Part shown: positions 354 to 34,097 of the stretch, piece after piece | Layout: each line of letters opens with the position of its first letter | How positions within the stretch are numbered: position 1 is the first letter of the stretch | NCBI GenBank assembly: GCA_028288085.1 | Contig: JAQBOK010000128.1 | Span: 1 to 47,002, forward strand | Reading direction: 5' to 3' | Length of the DNA: 47,002 nt | DNA from: Mucilaginibacter sp. | GTDB lineage: Bacteria; Bacteroidota; Bacteroidia; Sphingobacteriales; Sphingobacteriaceae | Notes under the pieces: generated by a model | Databases searched by the model: none | What the model was told of the DNA's origin: nothing | The model's input: the letters and a program-made list of their open reading frames with translations, nothing else | Program-made: the position numbers and the translations under genes

Positions 354-369
354 AGTAAATCGTTTTAGC
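354..369. promoter_or_regulatory. LacI-type operator AGTAAATC|GTTTTAGC upstream of the GH2 gene
   Basis: Matches the recurring motif GCTAAATC|GATTTAGC found upstream of most PUL units; 41 bp before the ATG at 411. Confidence 0.65.
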
Positions 370-410
370 TAATATTTTCTTTAAATTGCATTCGAAAATA
401 TACCGTCATT

Positions 411-3068
411 ATGAAACCAATCTTCGGCCTGATAATTATAAATCTACTGTTTCTTCAAAACGTATCGAACGCACAAAAGATAGTATTGAACTGGAAATTG
501 CACCCTCAGCAAGAAAACACCTACAGCATAAAACAACTATCTAAGCCTGGTTTTAATACTAAGAGCTGGATTAATGCGATAGTACCCGGAACCGTATTTT
601 ATTCCTATGTAAAGGCCGGCAAAGAGAGCAACCCCGATTATGCAGATAATATTTATAAAGTTAATAAAGCAAAATACAACCGTCCGTTTTGGTACCGTAC
701 AGAATTTTCTGCTAAAGGCTTTGCCCCAGGAAAAAGAATATGGCTCAACTTTAATGGCATCCATAAACGAGGTGAAATTTATTTAAATGGAAGCCACATT
801 GGGACAGTTAAAGGTATTGTAGAGAGGGGACTGTATGACGTGACCACGTTGCTGAATAAAAAAAGCGCGAACGTTATTTTAGTATTGGTTGTACCTCCCC
901 GTAATGATGCTGAACATAATCACCCCATGGCCAATTGGGAAAGTCCTACTTACATTAGCAGCGGAAGTTGGGACTGGATGCCCGCAGTGCCGGGATTAAA
1001 CAGCGGCATTACCGATACGGTTAGCATAACTGCAAAAGGCCCTATAGCTGTTTCAGATCCCTGGATACATACCAGCATGCCCGACAAAAACACGGCAAAT
1101 TTAACAGTTAATGTTCACCTCAATAACACATCATCTTCAACAGTAAGTGGCCAGGTTAAATTCAACATTAACCCGGGTAATATCACCGTTAACGGCCCTA
1201 TACTTACATTAAATGCCAATAGCAGCCAAACCGCAAATTACGATTGGACACAGTTTTCGCAATTAAAAATTAAAAATCCTAAACTATGGTGGCCAAACGG
1301 TTATGGCGGCAAAGCAGACGGGACTCAAAATTTATATACCTGTAGGGTTACTTTTAATGTTGGTGGAGTAACACCGTCTGACGTGGTTACAAAAGCCTTT
1401 GGAATAAGAAAGATCACTGCCGACACGACCTCGCTTAACGGGCCATTGCGTGTTTATGTTAATGATGTGCCTATATTGTTAAAGGGCGGTAACTGGGGTA
1501 TGAGCGATTATATGCTGAAGGCGCGCGGTAAAGATTATGATACCCGCATCAGGTTTCATAAGGAAATGAATTTTAATATCATCAGGAATTGGACCGGTGA
1601 AGTTACCGACGAGGCCTTTTATAACTATTGTGATAAATATGGCATTATGGTTTGGGACGATTTCTGGCTGAATAATTTCGGGCAAATTGACAGCCTGGAA
1701 ATATTTAAGCGCAATGCCATAGAAAAAGTTAAAAAACTAAGGGATCATCCTTCTATAGTTATATGGTGCGGTGCTAATGAGGGCGTACCAGGTGGCAACC
1801 CCAAAGGGCCACTAAACGAAGTGATCAAAAATGCCATTAAAGATAATGACGGCGAGGACAGGTTGTATCTTGCTCGATCAAATGCGGGGGAAACTAATCC
1901 AAACTTTTCTATTCATGGCGGCAGTCGGGTTTTATCGGGCAGCGGGCTTTGGAGTAATGCCGACCCTAAAACCTATTTTACTGATCCGCATAATGGCTAT
2001 TTGTTCTCTAAGGATTCTTATGGATTGCGTAGCGAGTTGGGGACGGCTACCTTTGTAAACGAAGAAAGCTTTAAAAAATTCATGCCTGCCGACTACTGGG
2101 TGGCTCCAACAACAGAGGCCGTTAACAGTAAAACTAATATGTGGGCCCGGCATTATTTTAGCACAGACGGAGCCCTGGGCGGGGGTTCTGACCCGGTTAA
2201 ATATATCAATACAATCAATAACAGCTACGGTAAAGCTACCTCGTTAGCAGACTTTTGCAAAAAAGCCCAGATGCTAAATGTGGAAACTATGAAAGCCATG
2301 TTCGAATCATGGAATGACCATATGTGGAACGACGCTTCGGGTATGCTGATATGGATGAGCCAATCGGCCTATCCATCCATGATATGGCAAACGTACGATT
2401 ATTATTATGACTTGACAGGTGCATACTTTGGTGCTAAAACAGCTTGTGAACCTGTTCATATACAATGGAACCCGGCTACAAATGCTATTAAAATAATTAA
2501 TAATAAGCCTTACAATCTAATGGCGTTAACTGCTGATGCATCTGTTTACAATATAGATGGCCAAATAGTGCCGGAATATTCATTCAAAAAACAAATGAAT
2601 GTGAATGCCACCTCGGCAACGGAGGCGTTCAAAGTCTTTGAAAATAGCGTTGGCCTGCCAAAACTATCTTCTGTCCATTTCTTAAAACTAAAGCTATTTA
2701 ATTCGCAGCATAAATTGTTATCTGAGAACTTTTACTGGATCGGAAATACTTATTTAGATTATACAGCCCTAAATAAAATGCCTTCTGTGAGTTCAAGTTT
2801 GACTGTGAGCCAACCAATAGTATCTACAGCAAAAAACAAAATTAACAAATTGCTTAAATATGTCATTTTAAATAGCTCAAAAACCACAGCTGCTTTTGGT
2901 ATCCGGGTGCAGTTATTAAATAATGCAGGGGAGCAGTTGCTGCCCGCTTTATACAACAATAACTATTTTTCTTTAATGCAGGGTGAAGCTGAAACTCTTG
3001 AAGTAGAAATTGATCCTAATCTGCTTAAGCACGGCTATAAATTACAGGTTAAAGCGTACAATAATTAA
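411..3068 (+). CDS. Glycoside hydrolase family 2 (exo-beta-glucosaminidase / beta-mannosidase-like), secreted
   Basis: 885 aa ORF with N-terminal signal peptide; GH2 motifs 'RNWTGEVTDEAFYNYCDKYGIMVWDDFW', 'VIWCGANEG' (acid/base) and 'RSELGT' (candidate nucleophile region). Confidence 0.85.
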   Translation: MKPIFGLIIINLLFLQNVSNAQKIVLNWKLHPQQENTYSIKQLSKPGFNTKSWINAIVPGTVFYSYVKAGKESNPDYADNIYKVNKAKYNRPFWYRTEFSAKGFAPGKRIWLNFNGIHKRGEIYLNGSHIGTVKGIVERGLYDVTTLLNKKSANVILVLVVPPRNDAEHNHPMANWESPTYISSGSWDWMPAVPGLNSGITDTVSITAKGPIAVSDPWIHTSMPDKNTANLTVNVHLNNTSSSTVSGQVKFNINPGNITVNGPILTLNANSSQTANYDWTQFSQLKIKNPKLWWPNGYGGKADGTQNLYTCRVTFNVGGVTPSDVVTKAFGIRKITADTTSLNGPLRVYVNDVPILLKGGNWGMSDYMLKARGKDYDTRIRFHKEMNFNIIRNWTGEVTDEAFYNYCDKYGIMVWDDFWLNNFGQIDSLEIFKRNAIEKVKKLRDHPSIVIWCGANEGVPGGNPKGPLNEVIKNAIKDNDGEDRLYLARSNAGETNPNFSIHGGSRVLSGSGLWSNADPKTYFTDPHNGYLFSKDSYGLRSELGTATFVNEESFKKFMPADYWVAPTTEAVNSKTNMWARHYFSTDGALGGGSDPVKYINTINNSYGKATSLADFCKKAQMLNVETMKAMFESWNDHMWNDASGMLIWMSQSAYPSMIWQTYDYYYDLTGAYFGAKTACEPVHIQWNPATNAIKIINNKPYNLMALTADASVYNIDGQIVPEYSFKKQMNVNATSATEAFKVFENSVGLPKLSSVHFLKLKLFNSQHKLLSENFYWIGNTYLDYTALNKMPSVSSSLTVSQPIVSTAKNKINKLLKYVILNSSKTTAAFGIRVQLLNNAGEQLLPALYNNNYFSLMQGEAETLEVEIDPNLLKHGYKLQVKAYNN

Positions 3069-4162: not shown

Positions 4163-4178
4163 GTTAAATCGATTTATC
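4163..4178. promoter_or_regulatory. LacI-type operator GTTAAATC|GATTTATC upstream of lacI (autoregulation candidate)
   Basis: Palindrome matching the recurring PUL motif, between the MFS stop and the lacI start. Confidence 0.65.
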
Positions 4179-4200: not shown

Positions 4201-5445
4201 TTATTTATTATTTATCCCCAATTTATTCACCTTATTATAGCTGTAACCAAATACAAATATTACCGTGTAACAAATAATTGGCAAATAATAAGCATTAGCT
4301 ACACTATGATTAGCTATAAGACCCATCAATGGCGGGAAAATACCGCCGCCAACAACGCCCATAACAATAAAAGAAGAAGCCTGCTGGGTTTGCTTGCCCA
4401 GATCTTTTAAGCCCAGGCTAAATATGGTTGGGAACATAATACTGAAAAAGAAGTTGATAAACAGCAATGCAATAAAAGAAACCCAACCAAAACTTTGAGC
4501 CACTATGATACACATTACAATATTGCTCAGGGCGAACGTGGCAAGTAGTTTATTAGGAGCTATATAGCGCATTAACACCGTACCGGCGGAGCGCCCAACA
4601 ACCATCATAATCATACTTAAAGAAAAAAAATAGCCCGCTTTTTCATCGGTGAAATGCATTACATCGTGTCCATAATTGATAAAATAGGCCCAGGTACCAC
4701 CTTGCGCTGCAACATTAAACAATTGCGCTATGGCCGCAAACACAAAATGTTTATGCTGAAATAGCGTTTTATCTACATGTTCTACCGGGACAACTGCATA
4801 TGCATCTGTTGTTGCGTTATGATAATCGCCAAGTTGGGGTACTTTTACAAAGGCAAAGGCTACACCAATCAGTACAATCACGGTACCTATTACAATATAT
4901 AAATGCTTTACAGATACCAAATCGTTAGAGTGCTCCTGCCCTGCTTTTAAAATAAAATAGCTGCCGATAAGTGGGCCAATAACACCGCCCAAACCATTAA
5001 ATGCCTGGGAGAAATTAATACGTTGATCGCTGGTGCGCTGGTCGCCAAGAGATGCTACAAACGGGTGTGCAACGGTTTCCAATGTAGCCAGGCCACAGGC
5101 TAAAACAAAAAGAGCTATCCTGAAAAAATTGAAAGAATCGGCATTGGCAGCAGGAACAAACAGGAATGCCCCGGTAGCATACAGGAATAAACCCAGAAGC
5201 ACACCCCTTTTGTAACCAAATTTTTTCATAAAAATGCCAGCTGGGATACCCATTACAGCGTATGCCCCAAACATGGATAACTGTACCAGCGCAGAGCGGG
5301 ATTTTGATACATGCAGCACGTTTTGAAAATGCCTGTTCAGCACATCACCAAGTGTTAAAGCAATACCCCAGAGCATAAATAGCGATGTGATAAATAGCAG
5401 GATCACCACGTATTTGCGTTCGGTAAAATTGGGTTTAGCGTCCAT
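4201..5445 (-). CDS. MFS sugar permease, FHS / L-fucose:H+ symporter (FucP)-like
   Basis: 414 aa with about 12 hydrophobic segments; FHS-like N-terminus 'FMLWGIALTLGDVLNRHFQ' and 'SQAFNGLGGVIGPLIGSYFI'. Confidence 0.85.
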   Translation of the reverse strand: MDAKPNFTERKYVVILLFITSLFMLWGIALTLGDVLNRHFQNVLHVSKSRSALVQLSMFGAYAVMGIPAGIFMKKFGYKRGVLLGLFLYATGAFLFVPAANADSFNFFRIALFVLACGLATLETVAHPFVASLGDQRTSDQRINFSQAFNGLGGVIGPLIGSYFILKAGQEHSNDLVSVKHLYIVIGTVIVLIGVAFAFVKVPQLGDYHNATTDAYAVVPVEHVDKTLFQHKHFVFAAIAQLFNVAAQGGTWAYFINYGHDVMHFTDEKAGYFFSLSMIMMVVGRSAGTVLMRYIAPNKLLATFALSNIVMCIIVAQSFGWVSFIALLFINFFFSIMFPTIFSLGLKDLGKQTQQASSFIVMGVVGGGIFPPLMGLIANHSVANAYYLPIICYTVIFVFGYSYNKVNKLGINNK

Positions 5446-5590: not shown

Positions 5591-7870
5591 TCATTGCTGT
5601 TCACTTTTTGACAGTGAGAATGGTTTATCCTCTGTAGCCAACCCCCGGCTTGTGTTGGGTTTGTCGCCCATTTCAAAATGCAGGGTGCCGCCATTCATGA
5701 TCTCGGCATGGCTTATCCAGTTATGCGTATATGGCTTCCCGTTCAATGTTGCCGACTGGATATACACATTCTGGCTGCTATTATTATTGGCTTCAATGGT
5801 GAATTTGTTGCCATTTTCCAGCGTAATAGTCATCTTTTTAAAGGCAGGGCTACCTATCACATATTGGTCTGTACCGGGGCAAACGCTGTAAAAACCTGCG
5901 GCACTCAGCACGTACCATGATGACATTTGCCCCTCGTCTTCGTCACCCGGATAACCATTTTCGGTAGCATTATACATTTTATCCATTACCTCGCGCAGAT
6001 GCTGCTGCGCTTTCCAGGGCTGGCCCGCATAATTGTAAAGGTATATCATGTGCTGTATCGGTTCATTACCCTGCACATACTGGCCCATTTTAAAAGCTGC
6101 CATTTCTGTCATTTCATGAATTACCTGCCCATATCCACCTACTTTAATAGTTCCGGGTTGGGTAAATACGGCGTCCATTTTATCGGTAAAATTTTTGTCA
6201 CCACCCATTAAATTAATTAAGCCCTGCACATCCTGAAAAACCGACCTAGTCCAGTGCCATGCTTTCACTTCGGTATAGGGGCCGCCCCAGTCAAGTGGAT
6301 CAAAAGGTTCTATCCAATTGCCGTGGGCATCTTTAGCACGCATAAAGCCTGATTTGGTGTCATACAGGTTTTTATAGTTATACATTTGCCGGCCAAACAC
6401 GTTTTCATAATGGGAATCCCCGGTTTGTTTAGCCAACTGGTACCCGCAAAAATCATCGTACGCAAATTCAAGCGTCCATGCGGTGGATCCTTGGGTTTGT
6501 GGGGTGAAGGGTACGTAACCATCTGCAAAATATTCTTTCCAGCCAGGCCTGCCATTGGCACTTCCCCATGGCCCTTTATTAGTTGCTTCGTGGTAATAAG
6601 CGTCCAGGGCCCGTTTGGGGTCAAATGTTCGGATACCTTTTACCCAGGCATCGGTTAACAATGATATGGCGTGATTACCTAACATGCCACCTGTTTCCGC
6701 GGGGAAAGACCATGCAGGAAGCCAGCTGCATTGTTGCTGCGCATCCAGTAAAGCATTTACATATTGACCTTCCATTTTGGGGTGCATAATGGTATTTAAG
6801 GGGAATTGCGCTCGGAAAGTATCCCAAAAGCCATTATCTGTATACATATAACCGTCGTGAATTGCACCATCGTAAGGGCTATAATAATATGGCTTACCAT
6901 CCTTGCCATATTCAAAAAATTGATGCGAAAACAAATTTGCGTGGTACAGGCAGGAGTAAAATGTCGCTTTTTGTTCTTCCGTTCCACCTTCAACCAACAT
7001 TCTGCCCAACAAAGTATTCCACACTTTATCAGCTGCTTTATGGGTTTCATCAAATGATTTGTATTGGCCTAATTCTTTTTGTAAAGTCAGTTCAGCCTGT
7101 TCTGAACTTATATAAGATGAGGCTACTTTTGCCTGTACCGTTTCGCCATCTTTAAATTTGATGTATGCGCCGACGCCGTCACCTTCGGCCTCTATTTGCT
7201 GAGCGCTTAGGGTATTTTTTTTATTTTCCCAGGTTCCGTAAGCTGTAAATGGTTTATCAAATACAATTACAAAATAATTTCTGAAGCTTTTTGGTGCCCA
7301 TCGGCAGTTATTTACCCAGCCGGTAATTGTCCTGTTAGCAGCATCAATTTTCACCATACTCATTTTGGTGTAGCCATCCAGCACCAGGTACGCGCCCTTG
7401 CTTTTAGGAAATGTGAACCGAAGATGGGCACCACGTTCTGTAGGGCTAATTTCGGTAGTGATGTTGTTACTCAACTTCACCTTATAATAACCCGGCTGAG
7501 CAATTTCATTATTATGGCTAAATGATGTGGCCCTTTCATCTTCGTTAACGACCAATTTGCCGGTAACAGGCATCAGGCTAAATACAGCATAATCATTCAC
7601 CCATGAACTGCATTGGTGCGATTGCTGAAAGCCACGAATGGTTTTTTCGAAATACTGATACTTCCAACCATCACCGTTCTTTCCGGTTTGGGGTGTCCAG
7701 GTGTTCATACCAAAAGGCAGCGACGTAGCCGGGTAAGTGTTACCATAAGAGAATTCGTACTTTGTGTTAGTGCCCTGCCGGGTATTAACATATTTAACCA
7801 GGTTTGTTTGCTGGGCAAACATGGCAGTGCTCAATAACAGTGCAGTGCAGGTAAGTATGCATTTATTCAT
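5591..7870 (-). CDS. Glycoside hydrolase family 92 (alpha-mannosidase), secreted
   Basis: GH92 signatures 'AETGGMLGNHAISLLTDAWVKGI', 'GNEPIQHMIYLYNYAG' and 'GDEDEGQMSSWYVLSAAGFYSVCPG'. True start probably MNKCILT at 7870; the ORF-track start at 7927 lies beyond a terminator-like hairpin. Confidence 0.93.
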   Translation of the reverse strand: MNKCILTCTALLLSTAMFAQQTNLVKYVNTRQGTNTKYEFSYGNTYPATSLPFGMNTWTPQTGKNGDGWKYQYFEKTIRGFQQSHQCSSWVNDYAVFSLMPVTGKLVVNEDERATSFSHNNEIAQPGYYKVKLSNNITTEISPTERGAHLRFTFPKSKGAYLVLDGYTKMSMVKIDAANRTITGWVNNCRWAPKSFRNYFVIVFDKPFTAYGTWENKKNTLSAQQIEAEGDGVGAYIKFKDGETVQAKVASSYISSEQAELTLQKELGQYKSFDETHKAADKVWNTLLGRMLVEGGTEEQKATFYSCLYHANLFSHQFFEYGKDGKPYYYSPYDGAIHDGYMYTDNGFWDTFRAQFPLNTIMHPKMEGQYVNALLDAQQQCSWLPAWSFPAETGGMLGNHAISLLTDAWVKGIRTFDPKRALDAYYHEATNKGPWGSANGRPGWKEYFADGYVPFTPQTQGSTAWTLEFAYDDFCGYQLAKQTGDSHYENVFGRQMYNYKNLYDTKSGFMRAKDAHGNWIEPFDPLDWGGPYTEVKAWHWTRSVFQDVQGLINLMGGDKNFTDKMDAVFTQPGTIKVGGYGQVIHEMTEMAAFKMGQYVQGNEPIQHMIYLYNYAGQPWKAQQHLREVMDKMYNATENGYPGDEDEGQMSSWYVLSAAGFYSVCPGTDQYVIGSPAFKKMTITLENGNKFTIEANNNSSQNVYIQSATLNGKPYTHNWISHAEIMNGGTLHFEMGDKPNTSRGLATEDKPFSLSKSEQQ

Positions 7871-7894
7871 TTGTATTTTATTAAAATCAATTAC

Positions 7895-7919
7895 AAAAAA
7901 GGAGGCGTTGCCACCTCCT
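7895..7919 (-). terminator. Intrinsic terminator-like hairpin AGGAGG-TGGCAACG-CCTCCT followed by T6, 25 nt before the GH92 start codon
   Basis: Minus-strand reading GAGGAGGTGGCAACGCCTCCTTTTTTG. Confidence 0.6.
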
Positions 7920-7948
7920 CTAACCAATATAAATCAATCTAAATTCTC

Positions 7949-8611
7949 CTAATTAATTGCAGCCTTATACAATAGTTCAGCTGCGTATTTGTTGCCCTCA
8001 TCGTTAAGGTGCACACCATCCTTTGTTAAAATGCCGTTGTCTTTATTTTGCGGGTTATTTTTAAGCCCATATTGATGAAATAAGCTGCGAAAATCAACCA
8101 GGCCGCAATTGTACTGCTTAGCCAGATCACGGATACTTTGCGAATATTTATTTAAATCGCCATCGAGCTCATTGGTGTAATCTGTTTTTTCGCCAACAGA
8201 TGCCGGTGTACACAATACCAGTTTAATGTTCTTAGCCTGGAATTTTTTTATCAAGGCTGTATAAAAACGACCAAACTTATCATAATCTGTACCGGTTCCG
8301 GCAAGCCGTTTATGCCATACATCATTTACGCCTACCCATATTACAACCACATCAGGGTTTTTAGCCAGCACATCATCTTCATACCGCAGGTACAGGTCAT
8401 AAATTTTGTTACCTCCAATGCCCGCACCGCTAACTGTATAATCGGCGTCTTTATGTTCATCTTTTAACCTTTGCTGTATGAGGGTAATAAAGCCCTGAGG
8501 CTGCACCGCATATTCGGTAATTGAATCACCAAAGAAAACCACGTTAACAGGCTTTTTCGGTGTAAATGACAATAAGGCAACTATAGTTGTCAATAGGATG
8601 ATCTTTTTCAC
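7949..8611 (-). CDS. SGNH/GDSL-family hydrolase (putative acyl/acetyl esterase), secreted
   Basis: 'VVFFGDSITEYA' (block I), 'GAGIGGNKIYD', 'VVIWVGVNDVW' and the C-terminal 'DGVHLNDEG' (DxxH). Confidence 0.9.
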   Translation of the reverse strand: MKKIILLTTIVALLSFTPKKPVNVVFFGDSITEYAVQPQGFITLIQQRLKDEHKDADYTVSGAGIGGNKIYDLYLRYEDDVLAKNPDVVVIWVGVNDVWHKRLAGTGTDYDKFGRFYTALIKKFQAKNIKLVLCTPASVGEKTDYTNELDGDLNKYSQSIRDLAKQYNCGLVDFRSLFHQYGLKNNPQNKDNGILTKDGVHLNDEGNKYAAELLYKAAIN

Positions 8612-8632: not shown

Positions 8633-8648
8633 GCTAAATTGATTTAGC
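8633..8648. promoter_or_regulatory. LacI-type operator GCTAAATT|GATTTAGC upstream of the SGNH-GH92 unit
   Basis: Two perfect 7-nt arms; identical to the site at 31618-31633. Confidence 0.75.
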
Positions 8649-8690: not shown

Positions 8691-9884
8691 TTATTGAAAT
8701 TTTACCCGGATAAATCTTGGGCGATACAAATTAGGATAAACCTTCAGGTCGTTAATAAAATCGGTAGAATTGATATTATAGCTAATCAATAATTCTCCCT
8801 GATCGGAAAGCGAGGGGTGCGCCTTGGCATTATAAACCACAAAGGTGTTTTTTATAAGGTCGGGTTTACAGTCCCAAAGCTTAATAATTGGCCCAAATGG
8901 CCCATAAGGTGTTGCACCTATACGCATCCCGACAGTGGTTGACATGCCATCAACCTGGAAAACAAGTGCATATCGCCCATCAGGGAGCACTGTTAAGCTC
9001 AATTCATTCGATACGTCTTTGGTTACGTCGGCAACTTTATTGATATCATTCAACCAGCTTTTTCCATCCCAATAAACCCACCTGTCAAAATTCTCAAAAT
9101 CAACGGGCTTTACCCGGGCAACCATTAGTTTCTTCGCCATTCCGCGTACCCCGTAAATATAAATGTAACCGTCGGGGTTTGGCACGCCGGCCGCGCTGGT
9201 GTTCACATAAATACCGGCGCCAAAAGAGCCGCTTTCACCTGCTTGATCCGTTAAATAAAAAGGAGTATCCATTTGCTTTTGATCGGTAAATGGAGGTTGG
9301 CTGCCGGACTTGATCTTTATTAGCGTATTACCAACTTCTTTAAATCCAAATGCCCCGGTACTTACATTGTGAACCCGGTAACCAAAAATATAGATATTAT
9401 TGCCAAGCGCCTGGTTTACAAAGCCATCACCCAACCAATAATAATCACCGTTTTTTGTTTGCGGTGTTTTAGGCATAAATATCGATTCGGGCGCCCCTTT
9501 ACTGTCTTTATCCCAGTGAAAACGAATCGCATCCGGTTCAGGTTTATTTCCCGTTAAAACCGCAACCGCATTATGGATCATTTTGTATCCCGGTGCCATT
9601 GTATTGTCATGGATCTTCCCTATCATGCTGTCGCTGAAAATAAAAAGCACTTTATCGGTACCTTTAACTTGTTTGCCTTCTTGTCCGTTCAACGGTATGG
9701 TATAAATACCATCGCCGCCAAACCAACCTGAATCGCGTTTTAATAACGCCGACCATTCGGGGGCTTCGGCTACGGTAAATTTAATATGTGTAACATCCAC
9801 TGGCTCACTTGTACTCTGCCCATATAAAACAACAGAAGAGAAAGAAAATACTATGGAAAAAATTAAGAGAAGATATGTTTTCAT
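8691..9884 (-). CDS. Secreted putative beta-propeller protein (DUF5005/DUF4185-like), possible glycosidase
   Basis: Signal peptide; propeller-like repeats such as 'WFGGDGIYTIPL', 'VLFIFSDSMIG', 'NIYIFGYRVHN' and 'GYIYIYGVRGM'. Family assigned by eye only. Confidence 0.45.
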   Translation of the reverse strand: MKTYLLLIFSIVFSFSSVVLYGQSTSEPVDVTHIKFTVAEAPEWSALLKRDSGWFGGDGIYTIPLNGQEGKQVKGTDKVLFIFSDSMIGKIHDNTMAPGYKMIHNAVAVLTGNKPEPDAIRFHWDKDSKGAPESIFMPKTPQTKNGDYYWLGDGFVNQALGNNIYIFGYRVHNVSTGAFGFKEVGNTLIKIKSGSQPPFTDQKQMDTPFYLTDQAGESGSFGAGIYVNTSAAGVPNPDGYIYIYGVRGMAKKLMVARVKPVDFENFDRWVYWDGKSWLNDINKVADVTKDVSNELSLTVLPDGRYALVFQVDGMSTTVGMRIGATPYGPFGPIIKLWDCKPDLIKNTFVVYNAKAHPSLSDQGELLISYNINSTDFINDLKVYPNLYRPRFIRVKFQ

Positions 9885-9930
9885 CTATAAGTGGCTTACA
9901 GCAATAAAGCTGATTCAAATTTAATTATTT

Positions 9931-23771: not shown

Positions 23772-23794
23772 TTTAGGTAAATTCTTGAAAGCTT

Positions 23795-25183
23795 CTATTG
23801 CACCCTTATTATAGCGATCCGGTGATTTTGCGGTTTATTAATGGCATATATCTGATCTGTAAGCACATTCATTTCCTTTTGCCAGGCATCCCGAACGCTT
23901 TTGTAACGGGCCCGTGAGTAATTGTCCTTATTACCGTTTACAAACATATCTTTAACTGCATATTTCTTCACGCTGTCCATGGCGGCATTGTTGTCTTTAT
24001 AAAGCATGTTTTTACCCTTCAGAAAATCATATTCCATCCATACATACATCCTCAGGCGCCGTTCAATATCCCATCTTTCTTCGTTCAGTTCCCTGACTTG
24101 GATAGCCTGCTGATATTCGGGTGTTTTGGTAATTTCGCCAAGATTAATACCATCGGCAAATTGTTTGTATGACCAATTACCCATCAATTCGCCGTCTATC
24201 ATTAAATTGTAGTTGCCATTTTGGAGGCCTTTTACAGCCAACAACTCCTGGTTAAATTCCTTTGTAAAAGGTATGAGCTTTAAAGCGTCAGCCTGCTTTT
24301 TACGATTGCCCCAACTGCGCGGGATGGTGTCGATAGGGTAAGGTAATGAATTGGCAAGGTAATTAAAGGTAACGGAATCCGCTGATCCTGAAATATTTGA
24401 CACTTTACAGTTTACAGCCCTCGAAAGTTTTCTACTTTTTGCATCGATGCCGATATCAGCAACAGGTTTGTTATCCAGCCCCTGCGCCTTTAAAAAAAGG
24501 TAAGCCATTACCAAATGTCCGTCGTTATCGGGATGAATACGGTCATTCGGTGTAAGACTGAATAAAGAATCGGTTGCCTGTTCCCGCTGATTGATTGCCA
24601 GCATTGGGTGGTAAAAGTCAACAATATCCCAGTTGTTCTTTTTGGCAGCAGCCTCCTGAAAATCTATGATCTTCCCTAAAGCAATACTCTTTTTTGGGTA
24701 TAGGTTTTTAGGATTGCTCTTGGTAGTTTCATCGTAAGGAGAGCCAAGTATGATGATCTTTTTGATCTCTGGCTTTTGCTTCAGCTTATTCTCCAGCATA
24801 CCATAATAATTGTAGGAGCCTGCTATCTTTTTATCCATAACATCCTGGGCGTCACTTTTGAACCAATCAAAATAGCCGCTGTCGTTCATTCCCCAGGTAA
24901 GCGTTAGAACGGTGGGATTTTTCGAGAACACATCGTCATCAAAACGATCATATATCTGGTTGATAGCGTCTCCGCCTATCCCAGCGTTAAAACAGGTAAT
25001 GCGCGCACCGGGAAAATGTGTCATGTAATACAGCCATATATAGGAATGATAATGGCCCCCGTCTGTAATGCTGTTGCCTACAAATGCAACCCTGTCGCCC
25101 GCGTGGAAGGGTGTGATCTTTTGGCCCATGGATGCGTTGAATAAAAAACAGGCTGCCAGTAGTGTAAAAATTATTTTCTTCAT
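23795..25183 (-). CDS. SGNH/GDSL hydrolase, 462 aa (paralogue 1), secreted
   Basis: 'VAFVGNSITDGGHYHSYIWLYYMTHFPG', 'NAGIGGDAINQI', 'LTLTWGMNDSGY' and 'DRIHPDNDGH'. Confidence 0.9.
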   Translation of the reverse strand: MKKIIFTLLAACFLFNASMGQKITPFHAGDRVAFVGNSITDGGHYHSYIWLYYMTHFPGARITCFNAGIGGDAINQIYDRFDDDVFSKNPTVLTLTWGMNDSGYFDWFKSDAQDVMDKKIAGSYNYYGMLENKLKQKPEIKKIIILGSPYDETTKSNPKNLYPKKSIALGKIIDFQEAAAKKNNWDIVDFYHPMLAINQREQATDSLFSLTPNDRIHPDNDGHLVMAYLFLKAQGLDNKPVADIGIDAKSRKLSRAVNCKVSNISGSADSVTFNYLANSLPYPIDTIPRSWGNRKKQADALKLIPFTKEFNQELLAVKGLQNGNYNLMIDGELMGNWSYKQFADGINLGEITKTPEYQQAIQVRELNEERWDIERRLRMYVWMEYDFLKGKNMLYKDNNAAMDSVKKYAVKDMFVNGNKDNYSRARYKSVRDAWQKEMNVLTDQIYAINKPQNHRIAIIRVQ

Positions 25184-25184
25184 A

Positions 25185-27512
25185 TTAATTAAGTCCCCAG
25201 TTTTTATTTGGTGTATTCCCCATGGTTAGTTCCAATATTCCTCCTTCAGCGATGTCTTTGAAATCAATGTGACATTTATTATAAGGCTTACCGTTGAGCT
25301 TTGCACTTTGGATATAAATATTTGTTGACGAATTGTTATCAGCTTTTATGGTGAAGGTTTTACCCTTAGCATATTCAGGGTCGAGCTTAAAAGTTATTTT
25401 GCTAAATACCGGGCTGGTAATTTCCTGCCGGGTATCGCCGGGGCAAACGGGATGCAAACCGGCTGATGCCAGTACGTACCAGGCAGACATCTGGCCCACA
25501 TCTTCGTTACCAACCAAGCCTTCAACAGAATTTTTGTACGCCCTGCGGCAAACCGCACGGCTCCATTTTTGAGTTAGCCAGGGCGCTCCTAAACGGTTAT
25601 ATAAAAAAGGAACGTGATGCACCGGCTCATTGGCCTGGTTAAAATAATCGTTCCACATCATATTTTCGGGTGTTTTTTCGAACAGGTTGTTTAGGTCGGC
25701 AATTACTTTTTCCGTGCCACCCATTAGCTTCACCATGCCATCAACATCTTGCGGTACAAACCAGCCCTGTTGATAAGGATTGGTTTCAAAGGTACCATAC
25801 CATTGGGTTAATCTCCCCGAATCTGGCCACGCGGCCCATTTGCCAGTACTGTCTTTCGGTCTGAACCAGCCTTTTTCCTTGTCGAAAATATTATGGTAAT
25901 CCTCACTGCGGGCAGCGTATTTAGCAGAATCGGCAGGATGTTTTAACCAACCACCCAACTGCGAAGCACACCATTCGGTATACGCGTATTCTAAAGTTAA
26001 AGCAATACTATTAGACCCTGGAGAATATCCCTTATCTCCATTGCCGAATTTTTCAACCGAACCAATTGAAAGCGCATAAGCCTCAGGTACATTAAAGTTG
26101 CGGATGCCCTTAGCATAGGCATCGGTTATTACGGATACCGCCGGGTTACCAAACATGCAGCCGCTGTAGGCGTTCAACAGTTCCCAGCGTTCCAGGTAAT
26201 TTTTATTTTTTTCGTTTGCCAGTGTTATCAACGAATTGATCAGATCGTTCACTAGGGATGGATTGATGATGGTTTGCAAAGGCATCTGGCTGCGAAACAC
26301 ATCCCAACCGCTAAAAACAGTACGTTTGTTAAATGTTCTATCAAGATGTGCCTTGCCATCTCCACCAGGATAGCGTCCATCCACATCGTTAATAATACGG
26401 GGATCTATCATGGTGTGGTACATGGCGGTGTAAAAAACAGTTCGCTCTTCCGGTGTACCGCCCTCTATTTTTACCTTAGCCAAAGCCTTGTTCCAAAGCG
26501 CAATTGCCCGATGATGGGCGGCATCAAAATTCCAGTCTTTGATTTCTGTCAGCAAATTATTTTTAGCACCTGCCATACTTACATAAGAAATACCTGATTT
26601 CAGGATAACCTGCTCATTGGCTTTAGTTGCAAATTCAGTATAAAAACCCAGGTGTTTACCCTGTTTTTGTTTGATGCCCTTTAAGATAGCTGCATGCGCT
26701 ATCCAATCCTGGTATTTTGCGTTCTCTACATCTTCGCGTTTACGACCCTGTCCGTCAGGTATATCTGCACTCCAAACACCAAAGTTCCTGAGTGGCTTAC
26801 TAAATTTAACATAAAAATAAACTGTATAATTGGCATGCCCATCACCGTCGCCCCAACCTCCTCCATCAGGCGTACATTTCATCCAGCCTTCTATGGTATT
26901 GGCATCAAGTACTTTTACGTATTGTAACGTTGACGTGCCCCCTACCCTTCTTGCCAGATCTATTTGTATCCTGGATGATCTGTTTTGCGGAAAGGTAAAG
27001 CGTAACATACCACTATGCGGTGCTGCTGTCATTTCGGCCTTAATATGATAATCGGTAAGCAGTGCACAATAATAACCGGCAGTTGCCTTCTCGCTCGACT
27101 TCAAGTATGCAGAGCGGTACCCAACTTTTGGATCAGCAAGCGTACCGGCGCTTGTTTTAAGTTTTCCGGTTGTTGGCATCACTAAAAAATTACCCATATC
27201 GCCATACCAGCCAATGCCACTCATTTGCGTAAAAGCAAAACCTTCGATACTTTTATGTTCATAGCTATAACCAGAGCCATTATCTCCACCAGTGACCGTA
27301 TTAGGGCTAACCTGCACCATACCGTAGGGTGTAGTTGCTCCAGGAAAAGTTTTACCCAAGCCATGATAGATACCTGCCGCTGCAGTGCTGCTACTGGCTC
27401 CAATTAATGGATTTACGTACGATGCGGCATCCTGCCCTTTTGCTATTAAAACAGCTACAGACAGTCCGACTGCCGTCACGAGGGCGAAAAATCTCTTAAC
27501 GTTTCTAAACAT
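25185..27512 (-). CDS. Glycoside hydrolase family 92 (alpha-mannosidase), secreted
   Basis: 'NSLITLANEKNKNYLERWELLNAYSGCMFGNPAVSVITDAYAKGI', 'QANEPVHHVPFLYN' and 'GNEDVGQMSAWYVLASAGLHPVCPG'. Confidence 0.95.
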   Translation of the reverse strand: MFRNVKRFFALVTAVGLSVAVLIAKGQDAASYVNPLIGASSSTAAAGIYHGLGKTFPGATTPYGMVQVSPNTVTGGDNGSGYSYEHKSIEGFAFTQMSGIGWYGDMGNFLVMPTTGKLKTSAGTLADPKVGYRSAYLKSSEKATAGYYCALLTDYHIKAEMTAAPHSGMLRFTFPQNRSSRIQIDLARRVGGTSTLQYVKVLDANTIEGWMKCTPDGGGWGDGDGHANYTVYFYVKFSKPLRNFGVWSADIPDGQGRKREDVENAKYQDWIAHAAILKGIKQKQGKHLGFYTEFATKANEQVILKSGISYVSMAGAKNNLLTEIKDWNFDAAHHRAIALWNKALAKVKIEGGTPEERTVFYTAMYHTMIDPRIINDVDGRYPGGDGKAHLDRTFNKRTVFSGWDVFRSQMPLQTIINPSLVNDLINSLITLANEKNKNYLERWELLNAYSGCMFGNPAVSVITDAYAKGIRNFNVPEAYALSIGSVEKFGNGDKGYSPGSNSIALTLEYAYTEWCASQLGGWLKHPADSAKYAARSEDYHNIFDKEKGWFRPKDSTGKWAAWPDSGRLTQWYGTFETNPYQQGWFVPQDVDGMVKLMGGTEKVIADLNNLFEKTPENMMWNDYFNQANEPVHHVPFLYNRLGAPWLTQKWSRAVCRRAYKNSVEGLVGNEDVGQMSAWYVLASAGLHPVCPGDTRQEITSPVFSKITFKLDPEYAKGKTFTIKADNNSSTNIYIQSAKLNGKPYNKCHIDFKDIAEGGILELTMGNTPNKNWGLN

Positions 27513-27584: not shown

Positions 27585-27600
27585 AAAAAAACGATTTAGC
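27585..27600. promoter_or_regulatory. LacI-type operator AAAAAAAC|GATTTAGC upstream of GH92-2
   Basis: Recurring motif, 73 bp upstream of the GH92-2 start. Confidence 0.6.
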
Positions 27601-27649: not shown

Positions 27650-30208
27650 CTAAAACATCCTTGCATTTTTCAGTTTGATGGTTCTTATTCCAAATTTTGG
27701 GATAGCTATAATTGTAGAAATTTGACTGGCTTCCTTTGATAAGGCTAATTCCCCTCCCTCTCTGCCATCAAGTCCGGTTAGTATGGCCTTAGTTGCCTGG
27801 CAGCCAAAAATTATTTTTTCTTTAATGGCCGACCCTGTATTAAAAATTCGCACCAGCATATCGTTACCATCAAAATTTATCGCTGATACTTCATATCCAA
27901 CTGGAAGTTTAACAAGGGATCTGCTCATTTTTTGCGGATGTTTATCGGTTGCTACTGCAATTAAGGGCTCATTCCACTTGGTGCCCTCTGCCCATATACC
28001 GGCTTTATCCCATTTGCCAACATGTGGTATCAAAGCGTAATTGATCTGTGTGGGGCCGTTAATACCATAGTTCCTGCCCCATAAGCCCATCCCCGAGTAT
28101 TGAATATCGAGCCCTAAAGGAAAATCCCCGCCATGCGCGTAACTGGTGGTATGATCGGTAAAAAGCGCCATACCATACTGATTATTTTTGTCGGTAACAT
28201 CTACCCAATTCAGTATTACGTTATTCTTTATACTGTCCCAGCTAGTAAAAAAAGTATTTTTCAACTTGCTTTCAGTTACATCAAAAGGTGCATTTTTGTA
28301 GACCTTTTGATGTTTTAAATTCAGTGGAAATAACGCAAGCAGTTTATTCCGGTCATCATAGAAAGCTTTTACCGGCAACTCTATTCTGTATGTTCCGCGT
28401 TTAGTATCCTGCCCTATACCGGGGTTACCTTTCCAGTCGATATTTAATTTGATATCGATCCGTGGCTGGCCCTGCGCTAAGGTAATCAGCTGGTTGTAAC
28501 TGTTGCCCCCTATGTACCCTTGCACCAAAATACTAATCCTCAGCGGCCCATTTTCTATGATCTCTACATGGGCGGCACTATCTGCGCTTGATCTAAAGCC
28601 ACCATCATGATAAAAGTTCCCGCGCAGTTCATTAAAGCTGCGGGCGTTTGACTGGTCAACAAACTCTTTATTATTTAATTTTTTTGCGATGATACTTTTT
28701 ATTACCCCCCCACGTGCCGGATCGATGATGAGCTTGTACAGATCTGTTTCTAGCTTATAGTTTCCATTAGCCAATTTATTCACGGCCGCGCCTTTTGCAT
28801 CTGCCGATGCTTTATCCGTTAGCTGATAAACCTTATATCCTACAGATGGCACTTTGGCCTTAAAAATGATACTGTTCCCGTTGGAAACCTGTAAAGGCAC
28901 GGAATGTCCGTTTTCATCAATCAAACCAATATTAGCCAAATCCAGGGCAGATGACAGCGGCACGTTTATTACTTCATCGCGGTTGGCGCCGGTGGTATTG
29001 TAAACGGTGACATAATTACCAATAACACCAGCCTTATTTAATGCGTCACCCGCGCGGTTAATAATGCTATCACATATCCGGTTGGTGTGGCCTGTCCAGA
29101 TGGTTACCTTATCTGCCCAGGTGTTACCGGGTTTGCCGTTGTAAGGCACTATCCAGCAATCATGATGCTGTGATAGCAACAAAGTGCGCCAAGCCGAATC
29201 TAATGGTGTCTGTGGCCAATCGGCATCGGCATAAATCTTAGCCAGAGCGCCCAGCTTCTCAGTAGCCACCAGCTTGTTTTCAGATACACGTACTTTCTGC
29301 GCAATTTGCTGTGTAACCTGCGAACCCCAAACCAGGCTTACCAAAATATCTTCCTGCGATATCTTCCAGTTTTGTTTTGCATCCTTTGCTGTTACATTGG
29401 CAAAGTAATTGCGCCAGGTAGTATAAACATTTTTAATATTGCCATCTACGCCATTACCTATAAAGGGCCCGCCTTTCCAGCCAGCATCCTGTAGCGTCAT
29501 CCCTATTGGGTGTGTAATACCGTCTGTGAGCGCAGTATTAATATATGCTGGCGAGTTATTCCAGGCGATAGTTTGCCAGGTTGATTTAGTGGCCAGTTTT
29601 TCTACATTATAACGTGGGGAGGCAATTATGCCAGTGCCATCCGGACCGATCCAATTAACCAGTTCACCACCATGTGGACGGGTATAACCACCAAAACAGG
29701 TATTCGGGTTTTTCAAGGATGCATATTTAAACCCAAAAGATTTCAATATCTGCGGCAAGGCGCTGGTAAAGCAAGGCTCTTCGGACGAATAGCTGGTAAA
29801 TACCGCTTCTGGAAAATGAGCTTTGATCATCTTCATCCCGTAGCTAAACTGCCGGATAATACTCTCGCCAGATATGTTGTACATATAGCTTTGCGCATAA
29901 GCCGGGTTCACATATTCAATTCTTCCTTTTAGGGACTGATCTGCGAAAATCGCCTTAAAATCTTCATAAGCTGCAGGGTCAATAGCTTGCGCCCTGGCCC
30001 AGGTTTCCGGCTCCAACTCGATATTAATTTTCCATTCGGGGTTCTTTTTTAACATATCTGCCATAAACCGGGTGTTCCAATCCGGGTAATGCCCCCATAT
30101 CCCGCCATGAAAACCATCTATATAATAGGCAGTTTGGGCAGATACTTTTGCATAGCTAAGGCAGACAACTAAAACAGAAAACAGATGTGATAATTTTTTA
30201 ACACTCAT
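27650..30208 (-). CDS. GH38-like alpha-mannosidase-family protein (divergent catalytic region), secreted
   Basis: GH38-like N-terminal layout ('YYIDGFHGGIWGHYPDWNTRFMADML...INIELEPETW...GRIEYVNPAYAQSYMYNISGESIIRQFSYGMKMIKAHF...LPQILKSFGFKYA') and long C-terminal beta-domains; canonical catalytic motifs not found. Confidence 0.65.
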   Translation of the reverse strand: MSVKKLSHLFSVLVVCLSYAKVSAQTAYYIDGFHGGIWGHYPDWNTRFMADMLKKNPEWKINIELEPETWARAQAIDPAAYEDFKAIFADQSLKGRIEYVNPAYAQSYMYNISGESIIRQFSYGMKMIKAHFPEAVFTSYSSEEPCFTSALPQILKSFGFKYASLKNPNTCFGGYTRPHGGELVNWIGPDGTGIIASPRYNVEKLATKSTWQTIAWNNSPAYINTALTDGITHPIGMTLQDAGWKGGPFIGNGVDGNIKNVYTTWRNYFANVTAKDAKQNWKISQEDILVSLVWGSQVTQQIAQKVRVSENKLVATEKLGALAKIYADADWPQTPLDSAWRTLLLSQHHDCWIVPYNGKPGNTWADKVTIWTGHTNRICDSIINRAGDALNKAGVIGNYVTVYNTTGANRDEVINVPLSSALDLANIGLIDENGHSVPLQVSNGNSIIFKAKVPSVGYKVYQLTDKASADAKGAAVNKLANGNYKLETDLYKLIIDPARGGVIKSIIAKKLNNKEFVDQSNARSFNELRGNFYHDGGFRSSADSAAHVEIIENGPLRISILVQGYIGGNSYNQLITLAQGQPRIDIKLNIDWKGNPGIGQDTKRGTYRIELPVKAFYDDRNKLLALFPLNLKHQKVYKNAPFDVTESKLKNTFFTSWDSIKNNVILNWVDVTDKNNQYGMALFTDHTTSYAHGGDFPLGLDIQYSGMGLWGRNYGINGPTQINYALIPHVGKWDKAGIWAEGTKWNEPLIAVATDKHPQKMSRSLVKLPVGYEVSAINFDGNDMLVRIFNTGSAIKEKIIFGCQATKAILTGLDGREGGELALSKEASQISTIIAIPKFGIRTIKLKNARMF

Positions 30209-30210
30209 TA

Positions 30211-31599
30211 TTATTTTATTAAGTTAATCTCGAAACGGTGAATAACCGGCTTATTGATCTGGTACATTTTATCGGTAAGCAGGTTTATTTCCTGTTGCCA
30301 TGCTTCGCGAACGCTTTTAAACCTTGCTTTGCGATAAGTAGGTATGGTTATTGCCACAAAAAAATCCTTTTTAGCATATTTTTGCAGAGAATCAACCGTG
30401 GCATCCCCATCATTAAACAGCAGTCCCTTTGGCTTCAATATGGAATAATGTATCCAGTAATATTCACGTAGTCGGCGCTCAATTTCCCAGCGTTCTTCAT
30501 TTAGGTGCATTACCGCCAATGCCTGCTGATATTGGGGTGTGATGTTAATTAGAGCCAGGTTAATACCTTGGGCAAAATCGGCACCGCTGTAAGTACCAAT
30601 GGTTTTGCCATCAATTTTAAGCGCATACTGACTTTCCTTCAATCCCTTGATTTGTAATACTTCCTGGTTAAACTCATTAGTAAATGGGATCAGTTTTAAA
30701 GCCTCTGATTGAGCGCGTTGCGGCCTTCCAAAACCACTTGGAACGGTATCAATGGGATAAGGTAAAGAATTGGCCAAATAGTTGAATTTGATAACCGCCG
30801 GCGAAATATGGGGTAGAGTAATGGCGCAATTCTCAACGTATTCCATCTTATTTGTCGAGGCATTGATTACTATATCAGCGATTTTTTTTCCTGCTAATCC
30901 CTGGGATTTTAAAAAAGCATATGCCATAACCATTTGCCCATCATTTGTGGGATGGATACGATCAGCATTATTAAATGTAAACAATGAATCGCGTTGCTGC
31001 TCGCGCAGACTAACCCGTGTAAGGCCACCATTAAAATCTACATAACCCCAATTATTTCTGAGCGCGGCTTTTTGTTGTTCAGATGCTATTCTCAAAATAG
31101 CGGCATTCTTTTTTAACAAGGGGTTGATCTTTATTTTAGAGGTTTCATCATACGGCGGCGAGGAGATCATGATCTTTTTAATCTCAGGGTGCGCTTTGAG
31201 TTTTGCCTCGATAAGCGCGAAGCTTTTTAGTGACGCGGCCACTTTAGCATTATAAACAGAATCGGCCTTACCCCCCTTCAAGTTTTGATAACCTGTATCA
31301 TTCATACCAAAGGTTAGTGTCATCACAGTAGGCTTATGGGCGAAAACGTCACTATCAAGCCTTTCAAATATCTGTTGTGCAACATCACCACCTATCCCTG
31401 CATTAAATACGGTAATGCGCCTGCCGGGGTAATGGGTTAAATAATACAGCCAAATGTAGGAATGATAATGACCGCCATCGGTGATGCTGTTACCTGTAAA
31501 TACTACCCGGTCGCCTTGTTGAAAAGGTCGGATCGTTTGCGCGGTAACAATCCCGTTAAAACAAAGAAATAAGGTTAATGTATAAAAGTTTAATTTCAT
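30211..31599 (-). CDS. SGNH/GDSL hydrolase, 462 aa (paralogue 2), secreted
   Basis: 'VVFTGNSITDGGHYHSYIWLYYLTHYPG', 'NAGIGGDVAQQI', 'LTFGMNDTGY' and 'DRIHPTNDG'; same length as 23795..25183 and collinear with it. Confidence 0.9.
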   Translation of the reverse strand: MKLNFYTLTLFLCFNGIVTAQTIRPFQQGDRVVFTGNSITDGGHYHSYIWLYYLTHYPGRRITVFNAGIGGDVAQQIFERLDSDVFAHKPTVMTLTFGMNDTGYQNLKGGKADSVYNAKVAASLKSFALIEAKLKAHPEIKKIMISSPPYDETSKIKINPLLKKNAAILRIASEQQKAALRNNWGYVDFNGGLTRVSLREQQRDSLFTFNNADRIHPTNDGQMVMAYAFLKSQGLAGKKIADIVINASTNKMEYVENCAITLPHISPAVIKFNYLANSLPYPIDTVPSGFGRPQRAQSEALKLIPFTNEFNQEVLQIKGLKESQYALKIDGKTIGTYSGADFAQGINLALINITPQYQQALAVMHLNEERWEIERRLREYYWIHYSILKPKGLLFNDGDATVDSLQKYAKKDFFVAITIPTYRKARFKSVREAWQQEINLLTDKMYQINKPVIHRFEINLIK

Positions 31600-31617: not shown

Positions 31618-31633
31618 GCTAAATTGATTTAGC
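31618..31633. promoter_or_regulatory. LacI-type operator GCTAAATT|GATTTAGC upstream of the SGNH-GH38 unit
   Basis: Identical to the site at 8633-8648. Confidence 0.75.
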
Positions 31634-31671: not shown

Positions 31672-34029
31672 CTAAATAATAAATGAATTACTCCCCGCTT
31701 TTAGTGCATATTGCTTTGCTTTCCAAATCAATATACCAGTGGTTCTCTGCGGCAGTGTTATTTGTACAGACCATTTGCCTTGGTTGAGGACATAACTAAC
31801 TGCTATTTTCCCGTCTGGGTGAGGAATTTCACCACTTACTTTGGTTATTGTTCCTAAATGTGGTTTTATCCTGATCTTCTTGAATCCGGGTGCATAGCTG
31901 TCAATCCCTAATACTGTCCTGAAAAATTCAATATTTGGACTTGCCCCCCAGGCATGGCACTCTGAACGTACGGTTTGCAGGCTTGAGTCCTCAGCCCAGG
32001 TAGTCATTCCCATTGCTATATTTTCTCGCCATATGCCCAACCAGTTCATATAATCGTTGCCCAAACCTGCTTTTATAAGTGCTTGGTGCAGGTAATATTT
32101 AAAGTAAACGGTGCATTGGGTTAAACTTTTATCGTTAAGGAGTCTGTTGGCGACAGCTGGCATGTCCGCATTGCTTACCATACCTGTAAGTACCGCCAGG
32201 GAATTAACATGCTGTGAAAACCCGGTTTTTTCTTTAGTATCGGCATATAATTTTTTTACCGGGTCCCAGTACTTGCGTTGTATAGTAGCCTTTAACTGCG
32301 CGGCTTTTTGATTATAGATAATTGCATAATCATGCAGACCGATTTTGGCTTCCATTTCCGCAGCCCATTGATAAGCCCAAAGTAGCTGCAGGTCATATAT
32401 AGCGGCACTGCCGTCCGTACCTTTGACATTACCAGCCAAATTGCCCGCCCAGTCAACAAACGTCCAGTATGGCGTATCTTTTAATGAGCCATCCGGCTGC
32501 TGATATTTGCTGAAAAAATTAAGGATATCCCTTTCGCCCACCAATTTGTCTTTTACAAAACCACTATCAGGCCGGTACATCCAGTAATCATGGAGCATGC
32601 CGATATACCATAGTGAAAAGGTTGAGATGATCTGCGTACCTTTTGTAGGATAACAGCTTCTGGTAACGCCTTCAGCTAAACGCGAATGATCCATCAAAGT
32701 GAGGGCATTACGGGCCAGCCGGTCATCACTGGTATTATAGTAAGATATTAATGCCTGTATCCTGGTATCGCCTATGTATTGTAATTGCTCATAATAAGGG
32801 CAATCTGTATAAGTTTCCCACGCGTTAAGCCGCGCAGTACGCCAGCCAATATCCAGTATTTGCTTGGTTTCGGTATTGTCTGTATTAAATACCGCGGTTC
32901 GTTTAAAAGGATAACCGGTGAAAGTGCCATAAAGATCATCGATAACCAACGGCTCATTTTTGGTCTGTACAATCAGCCTGATGTAGCGATAAGTACGAAA
33001 GTTTAGCGTTGTAAACGTTTGCCCCTGGCTACCGTCTGCAATCAGACTGTCTATTCGCCCTACAAAATCTTTGCCTTCTATTTCATTCCGGTTACTTTTG
33101 CGCCTGCCCTTGCTGCCTTTGTCGTAAAGTGTTTCGGCGTAGCCTAATGAAATTCCGGCATCCTTGCCGCCGCTAAAATTTAGTGTTACATAAGCGTTTG
33201 TTTCAAAAGTTTGATCAAGCAATAAAGTAACCATAGTATTGGCAGGGATCGTTAACGGTGTCTTTACTTCGGGAAATGTGGGCGGAACGCTAATGCCAAC
33301 TGCACTACGCAACTTAATGATGCGTTGGTAGGTCATTTCCCTTGGTGGTAATGATGAAGGAACTAATGCCCAATCAATGCCCCATGACATGCCTTTAAGA
33401 GTTCCATCAAGCACTTTAGCCGCAAAAGGCCACACGCCGTCATTATAATTTACAGCTGTCCAATCGCCTTTGACAGCTTGATTCATATCTACCATTTCGC
33501 CTTTACTGGCAGCAAAAAAATAACCCGGAACGGGCTGATGACCGGCATCACGGATGCATTTCCAGGTGTTGTTAGTATTCAATATCTCTTCATTGGCAGA
33601 ATTCCCCTGTATAATGAAAGCTGTTCGTACCGAAATTTGTGCTTCGGGACGATATTGTGCCTCATTCCAAACAACCCCAGCTATGATATTCTTTCCCACC
33701 GATAAATATGGCGATAAATCAACTGTTTCATAATTCCAGTAGTAGGTATCTCCACGGGCCGGACCCAATGAAACCATCGTTCCATTAACATACAATTTAT
33801 AGCGATTATCTGCAGATATATGTATGGTAAACGATGCGGGTTTTACTGAAAGATCAATACTTTTCCGGAAATAAAAAACGCCGTAACTGATACCGTTATC
33901 CCCGGGTGCAGCTATCCATTGCGAATTCCACGGCTCTTTTCGAATCTGGATATCAGCCGATTGAGCACAGACACTATTAGTCGAAACTAAACCAGAAAGG
34001 AACAGCAGTACCGTAAAAATAAACTTCAT
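31672..34029 (-). CDS. Glycoside hydrolase family 78-like (alpha-L-rhamnosidase), secreted
   Basis: 'WETYTDCPYYEQLQYIGDTRIQALISYY', 'YKLYVNGTMVSLGPARGD' and 'SECHAWGASPNIEFFRTVLGI'. Start taken as MKFIFTV at 34029. Confidence 0.88.
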   Translation of the reverse strand: MKFIFTVLLFLSGLVSTNSVCAQSADIQIRKEPWNSQWIAAPGDNGISYGVFYFRKSIDLSVKPASFTIHISADNRYKLYVNGTMVSLGPARGDTYYWNYETVDLSPYLSVGKNIIAGVVWNEAQYRPEAQISVRTAFIIQGNSANEEILNTNNTWKCIRDAGHQPVPGYFFAASKGEMVDMNQAVKGDWTAVNYNDGVWPFAAKVLDGTLKGMSWGIDWALVPSSLPPREMTYQRIIKLRSAVGISVPPTFPEVKTPLTIPANTMVTLLLDQTFETNAYVTLNFSGGKDAGISLGYAETLYDKGSKGRRKSNRNEIEGKDFVGRIDSLIADGSQGQTFTTLNFRTYRYIRLIVQTKNEPLVIDDLYGTFTGYPFKRTAVFNTDNTETKQILDIGWRTARLNAWETYTDCPYYEQLQYIGDTRIQALISYYNTSDDRLARNALTLMDHSRLAEGVTRSCYPTKGTQIISTFSLWYIGMLHDYWMYRPDSGFVKDKLVGERDILNFFSKYQQPDGSLKDTPYWTFVDWAGNLAGNVKGTDGSAAIYDLQLLWAYQWAAEMEAKIGLHDYAIIYNQKAAQLKATIQRKYWDPVKKLYADTKEKTGFSQHVNSLAVLTGMVSNADMPAVANRLLNDKSLTQCTVYFKYYLHQALIKAGLGNDYMNWLGIWRENIAMGMTTWAEDSSLQTVRSECHAWGASPNIEFFRTVLGIDSYAPGFKKIRIKPHLGTITKVSGEIPHPDGKIAVSYVLNQGKWSVQITLPQRTTGILIWKAKQYALKAGSNSFII

Positions 34030-34081
34030 CGCAGTTAAGTAATTGGTAAGACAATAATACAAATAAACTGTTAAAAACAAA

Positions 34082-34097
34082 AATAAATCGTTTTAGC
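34082..34097. promoter_or_regulatory. LacI-type operator AATAAATC|GTTTTAGC upstream of GH78
   Basis: Recurring motif; last instance found, marking the distal edge of the PUL. Confidence 0.65.

Follow-up and report, generated by a model that had tools for sequence, protein, structure and literature searches.

An operator motif shared by seven units of a Mucilaginibacter polysaccharide utilization locus and its putative LacI-family regulator

The island and its regulator gene

The DNA analysed here, referred to as the window, is a stretch of 47,002 nucleotides from a soil Mucilaginibacter sp. that makes up the entire contig C184 of a 5.07-Mb draft genome (G000). It contains an island in which two SusD and two SusC proteins are encoded together with carbohydrate-active enzymes (two GH92, GH38, GH2 and GH78), the combination of a SusC/SusD pair and co-located enzymes by which polysaccharide utilization loci (PULs) are recognized (Table 1). 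The main operon (8691-22686) opens with SusD1, DUF5004, DUF4961 and SusC1, unlike the usual SusC-SusD order, and nine of ten relatives keep this opening. It also includes an LGT-like membrane protein of the prolipoprotein diacylglyceryl transferase family (9931-11100), which is kept inside the PUL in six of the ten relatives and whose family scores lie well under the curated Lgt cut-offs. Some relatives do not have the LGT-like or the DUF4185 gene at the corresponding place in the main operon. The MFS protein scored above the curated cut-off for the L-fucose permease family FucP.

Judging from the two GH92 enzymes, GH38, GH2 and several acyl esterases, the substrate is probably an acylated glycan rich in alpha-mannose. 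DUF4185 proteins have been shown to be endo-D-arabinofuranases that attack the arabinogalactan and lipoarabinomannan of mycobacteria (PMC10115798). As the DUF4185 match at 8691-9884 is partial (45 bits against a cut-off of 39.5, over about 100 residues), an arabinomannan-type substrate is only a lead.

Table 1. Operators, genes and units of the island, in window coordinates
Feature	Coordinates	Strand	Basis and remarks
Operator AGTAAATCGTTTTAGC	354..369		About 41 bp before GH2; GH2 of relatives preceded by matching sites
GH2 (exo-beta-glucosaminidase / beta-mannosidase-like)	411..3068	+	Pfam
LacI-family regulator, 340 aa	3092..4114	-	Pfam LacI PF00356, 37.0 bits (cut-off 27); Peripla_BP_3 PF13377, 83.4
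Operator GTTAAATCGATTTATC	4163..4178		About 48 bp 5' of the lacI start codon; equivalent site in most LacI orthologs at least 77% identical
MFS sugar permease, FucP family	4201..5445	-	Pfam MFS_1; TIGR00885 fucP, 319 bits against a cut-off of 280.4
SGNH1 (7949-8611) and GH92a (5591-7927)	5591..8611	-	Pfam
Operator GCTAAATTGATTTAGC	8633..8648		21 bp before SGNH1-GH92a; many relatives have the identical 16-mer at the equivalent place
Presumed long operon SusD1-DUF5004-DUF4961-SusC1-SusD2-SusC2-LGT-like-DUF4185	8691..22686	-	Pfam; order kept in relatives
Proximal SusD1 operator	22754..22769		In presumed transcribed leader
Distal SusD1 operator	22873..22888		119 bp from the proximal site
GH92b, SGNH2, esterase operon	22941..27512	-	Pfam
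Operator before GH92b-SGNH2-esterase	27585..27600		Matrix
SGNH3, GH38 operon	27650..31599	-	Pfam
Operator GCTAAATTGATTTAGC	31618..31633		18 bp before SGNH3-GH38; relatives also have a site there
GH78-type alpha-L-rhamnosidase-like enzyme	31672..34080	-	Pfam
Operator before GH78	34082..34097		About 53 bp from probable ATG at 34029

The original prediction had placed a lacI gene inside the locus and had seen no hybrid two-component, SusR or ECF sigma/anti-sigma genes, and both statements stand. None of the latter occurs among the window proteins scanned with Pfam, and the protein encoded at 3092-4114 combines a helix-turn-helix ('LSIVDIANHLNVSKTTISFILNG') with a periplasmic-binding-protein-like sensor domain, as is diagnostic of the LacI/GalR family. 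Its hinge reads 'PNSLAKSLRTG', in which a leucine was placed by eye at the position of LacI Leu56, the residue inserted at the operator centre in the LacI family. By sequence, CcpA, PurR and RbsR are its nearest solved structures and family models; they are of similar length (about 330-341 aa), and the alignment to CcpA spans residues 4-315. However, the protein scores far under the curated cut-offs for these specific functions (205.5 against 382 for RbsR and 151 against 442 for CcpA). Its nearest relatives by sequence are from Mucilaginibacter, and this genome encodes six LacI-family proteins.

The operator motif in the window and the genome

Eight 16-mers had been proposed as operators, and all were found at the coordinates given for them (Table 1), including the pair at 8633 and 31618 that is identical over 16 nt. 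They had been described as a palindrome, GCTAAATCGATTTAGC, with tolerated changes. No exact copy exists among the eight, but the tolerated changes amount to one to four mismatches per site: one at 8633 and 31618, two at 4163, three at 354 and 34082, and four at 22754, 22873 and 27585. A search of the window with up to three mismatches gave six sites against 0.21 expected from shuffling; five belong to the eight, and the sixth, at 19127, is coding. With a symmetrised matrix built from the eight operator sites, these took the window's top eight scores (18.5-21.9 bits), followed by a coding runner-up at 14.3 bits, and each site omitted in a leave-one-out test was still ranked first in the window. 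As claimed, each of the eight lies in an intergenic gap upstream of a transcription unit, while non-coding DNA amounts to only 10% of the window. Seven units are served in this way, with the sites at 22754 and 22873 sharing the gap before SusD1. GH78 probably begins at an in-frame ATG (34029) and not at the TTG at 34080; its operator then lies about 53 bp upstream of the gene. The MFS, DUF4185, LGT-like and SusC genes carry no operator of their own and presumably depend on read-through. The window has no operator past the GH78 gene of the island, so that the operator-bearing stretch ends with the PUL.

The operator is a 16-bp even palindrome with the half-site GCTAAA-W and a centre that is CG in six of the eight sites and TG or CA in the other two. 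LacI-family regulons typically have even palindromes of 16-22 bp, usually with a central CG, located in intergenic regions and mostly between -140 and -30 (PMC4052901). The motif fits this description of the palindrome; five operators are wholly inside the positional range, two fall at about -19 to -37, and the remaining one occupies about -187 to -202.

The motif does not recur at comparable density in unrelated or coding regions of the genome. With up to two mismatches, only five sites were found in the whole 5.07 Mb: those at 8633, 31618 and 4163 in the window and one on each of two other contigs (C12:10557 and C67:10700). These last two mark predicted remote regulon members, in line with the expectation that the motif would serve as a handle for such genes. 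The C12 site is located 16 bp before a truncated GH31-like ORF with weak family matches only. The C67 site, together with a weaker second one at 10729 (21.5 and 14.4 bits), lies upstream of a two-domain acyl esterase; relatives of this esterase (57-59% identical) are found in the PUL, beside operators, in three other genomes (G089, G037 and G067), which supports its true membership. Because the remote regulon was found by pattern searches and not by a matrix scan of the genome, C12 and C67 are a lower bound. The view of a single regulon across the island thus holds insofar as seven units carry operators, but the C12 and C67 sites extend it beyond the island.

A further site, on contig C306, was rejected as a separate member: the end of C306 matches window positions 1-476 with 97% identity and is a strain variant of that segment, GH2 promoter included. 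Just left of this contig end, which overlaps the window start, a SusC/SusD pair is encoded.

Distribution of the motif among LacI relatives

We compared 79 loci encoding relatives of the LacI at 3092-4114, flanks included. Matrix matches of at least 15 bits were intergenic in 113 of 123 cases, although intergenic DNA makes up 10% of these loci. In most of the LacI orthologs with at least 77% identity, lacI is preceded by a site no more than 260 bp away; two orthologs with the recognition residues VSKT (L046 and L047) have no strong lacI-upstream sites, and in four other relatives a site is located upstream of MFS-lacI.

We also searched 91 Mucilaginibacter genomes with the pattern GCTAAAWCGWTTTA, using the reversed pattern as the control. 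The 41 genomes with a LacI of at least 70% identity contained 108 matches (0.43/Mb) against 57 for the control (0.23/Mb), whereas the 35 genomes without a LacI of at least 54% identity contained 10 (0.057/Mb) against 22 (0.12/Mb). Of the 108 matches, 56 are found no more than 40 kb from that lacI (expectation 1.4). The other 52 correspond roughly to the control frequency, indicating that the excess of the motif is local. A repeat of AT-rich promoters arising by chance or composition might be suspected, given that the motif is AT-rich and that its conservation is partly promoter sequence (TTTG, TAnnTTTG). Shuffling, the leave-one-out ranking and the genome-wide and cross-genome controls contradict such an origin, and we rejected it as having a negligible probability.

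The upstream regions of orthologous PULs, whose comparison had been suggested as a check, tell the same story as the window: ten relatives keep gene order and operators, with individual losses. The units whose operators are kept are SGNH3-GH38, GH92b-SGNH2-esterase, SusD1, SGNH1-GH92a, GH78 and GH2, and lacI is inside the island in all ten relatives.

Operators of relatives were also observed before secreted ricin-type lectin-domain proteins (L028:11361-13007; L109:1848-3758; L114:12610-14247 and 17238-18890; L122:14916-16613), whose C-terminal region has no family assignment; one of them has a weak match to DUF5005. These proteins may be further enzymes of the PUL's pathway.

Other palindromes occur near some related LacI clades. 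A sister clade of about 50% identity differs in its recognition residues (VAKS instead of VSKT) and hinge (SLS instead of SLR), and AAAACCGGTTTT palindromes were found near lacI in all 12 relatives examined. A paralog in this genome, on contig C142, falls in the sister clade in the LacI tree; its contig contains three one-mismatch matches to AAAACCGGTTTT, one of them upstream of its lacI, and no equally good match exists elsewhere in the genome. The operator on C142 (loci L023 and L143-L145) reads ATAAAACCGGTTTTGC, with one copy upstream of lacI and two more, spaced by 38 bp, some 2.6 kb beyond it. Operators with the centre ACGT occur near several Pedobacter-type relatives. The tree requires 14 changes of operator label against 40 in shuffles, a clustering to which near-copies contribute; the rows own_L025 and own_L026 of the tree are wrong ORFs and are to be disregarded. 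A clade of 62-68% identity (L057-L059, L062, L063, L065-L069, L071 and L072) shares with the window LacI the core recognition residues SKT and the hinge, yet has few or no such sites nearby; no clear operator was found within 10 kb, and strict and loose palindrome searches gave no convincing other motif. Across the clades compared, the operator centre appears to covary with the recognition helix and hinge of LacI, which is a new detail.

Could the palindrome instead be the target of some other transcription factor, one that has its gene outside the island and accompanies this type of PUL, the neighbouring LacI being coincidental? The link between LacI and operator rests on sequence comparison, the genome has five further LacI-family proteins, and an AraC-type regulator adjoins the PUL in one relative. 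However, the motif clusters at this LacI and is rare without it, lacI is a constant member of the relatives' islands, the sister clade has its own different palindrome, and a 16-bp even palindrome with a central CG is of the LacI-family type (PMC4052901). We therefore consider another factor very improbable. The footprint, the clustering at the ortholog, the rarity where this LacI is missing and the different operator of the sister clade all support the original assignment of the motif as the target of the island's LacI.

Promoter geometry and the proposed mode of control

Sigma-A promoters of Bacteroidota have TTTG near -33 and TAnnTTTG at -7 (PMC7366714), the latter box also being described in PMC9723704. 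We oriented 76 non-redundant operators by their downstream genes. Of the 61 sites starting with G, 26 have a TTTG at -3..0 that ends on the first operator base (expectation 2.5), and nine of the 76 carry an exact TAnnTTTG at +19/+20 relative to that base (shuffled mean 0.18, maximum 3). In the window, a TTTG-N19-TAATTTAG promoter is predicted whose spacer is filled by the distal SusD1 operator, and a TTTG-N19-TAATTTGG promoter of GH92b whose spacer contains the operator at 27585; the operator at 8633 directly follows a predicted TTTG-N20-TACTTTAG promoter of SGNH1. Promoter prediction in the window gave no clear core promoter overlapping the GH2, SGNH3 and GH78 operators. For lacI, the best -7 box predicted is downstream of the operator, which lies outside the spacer of the predicted promoter. 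A second geometry, in which TAnnTTTG would end on the first G of the operator, was rejected, as its 44 near-matches at -7 were mostly TTTG with AT-rich flanks and only three were exact. The frequent location of operators in the spacer between the -33 and -7 boxes, or just after the core promoter, is what one would expect of a repressor that keeps out RNA polymerase, as far as predicted promoters indicate.

We consider it highly likely that the palindrome is the operator of the LacI at 3092-4114 and that a dimer of this protein represses the island, the two remote genes and probably lacI until released by a sugar. LacI binding, repression, autoregulation and sugar induction are inferred from sequence. 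Counting against this reading are the scarcity of sites in the clade of 62-68% identity, the two VSKT orthologs that have no strong site before lacI, the place of the lacI operator outside the promoter spacer, and the three operators at which no clear core promoter overlaps. When the substrate is absent, a LacI dimer would most likely occupy each operator and keep RNA polymerase off the core promoter, so that the island of mannosidases, esterases and SusC/SusD proteins, the two remote genes and probably lacI would be silenced. A sugar or oligosaccharide freed from the substrate would bind to the sensor domain of LacI, which would then leave the operators and permit the joint expression of all units. 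Alternatively, the motif could be the operator of this same LacI while the protein activates all or some of the units. The predicted -7 box of lacI (TATATTTG) is downstream of the operator, at a distance of 38 bp from its first base, which would leave room for an activator, and dual regulators such as FruR/Cra exist in the LacI family (PMC4052901). Since operators that fill or directly follow a core promoter, as many do here, would block RNA polymerase, activation seems unlikely compared with repression.

Repression could involve both sites before SusD1. The corresponding pairs are 107-111 bp apart in six relatives and 132 and 142 bp apart in two, and G089 has a single SusD1 site above the threshold. 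Pairs of operators spaced by about 107-119 bp before the SusD/SusC operon in most relatives are, as predicted sites, a new detail, and both looping and a second roadblock would fit. The tetramerisation of E. coli LacI depends on extra C-terminal length, the tetramerisation helix. The LacI at 3092-4114 does not have this extra length, which favours the roadblock over looping.

More speculatively, the PUL might be controlled wholly by derepression, with one soluble LacI dimer governing seven units of the island and at least two remote ones without any membrane sensor. The SusD/SusC operon would be controlled via two operators about 10-11 helical turns apart, one at the promoter and one in the leader, acting by looping or as a double roadblock, and the centres TCGA, CCGG and ACGT of the sister clades would follow changes in the recognition helix and hinge. 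We regard this extended picture as possible but doubtful.

We found no paper on this regulon in the openly licensed literature searched. It resembles the local LacI-family regulons of RegPrecise in having a palindrome of even length (16 bp), mostly with CG at the centre, in its intergenic sites before carbohydrate genes and before the regulator gene, and in serving one local pathway (PMC4052901), a study that covered one Bacteroides group only. It differs from them in extending over seven window units and at least two remote ones, with two SusC/SusD pairs and paired SusD1 operators. The LacI regulators KdgR, UxaR, UxmR and UxuR of Bacteroides thetaiotaomicron are likewise Bacteroidota regulators of sugar use predicted by comparative logic (PMC3878776). 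Those regulons, grouped there with other monosaccharide regulons, serve uronate pathways, and the polysaccharide-utilization workflow of the same study deals with HTCS and SusR-like regulators; here, by contrast, the predicted LacI regulon takes in a polysaccharide-type PUL itself. The island regulon is a well-supported prediction of a new and clean LacI-family PUL regulon, although the type of control is already familiar.

Accounts of PUL control in Bacteroidota mostly centre on membrane sensors and sigma factors. The analysis provides a ready-made operator matrix, a regulon and its putative cognate regulator for a PUL that is widespread in Mucilaginibacter. As with the C67 esterase, the motif can locate more members of the degradation pathway in these genomes, and the sister clades lend themselves to testing how operator preference shifts within the LacI family.
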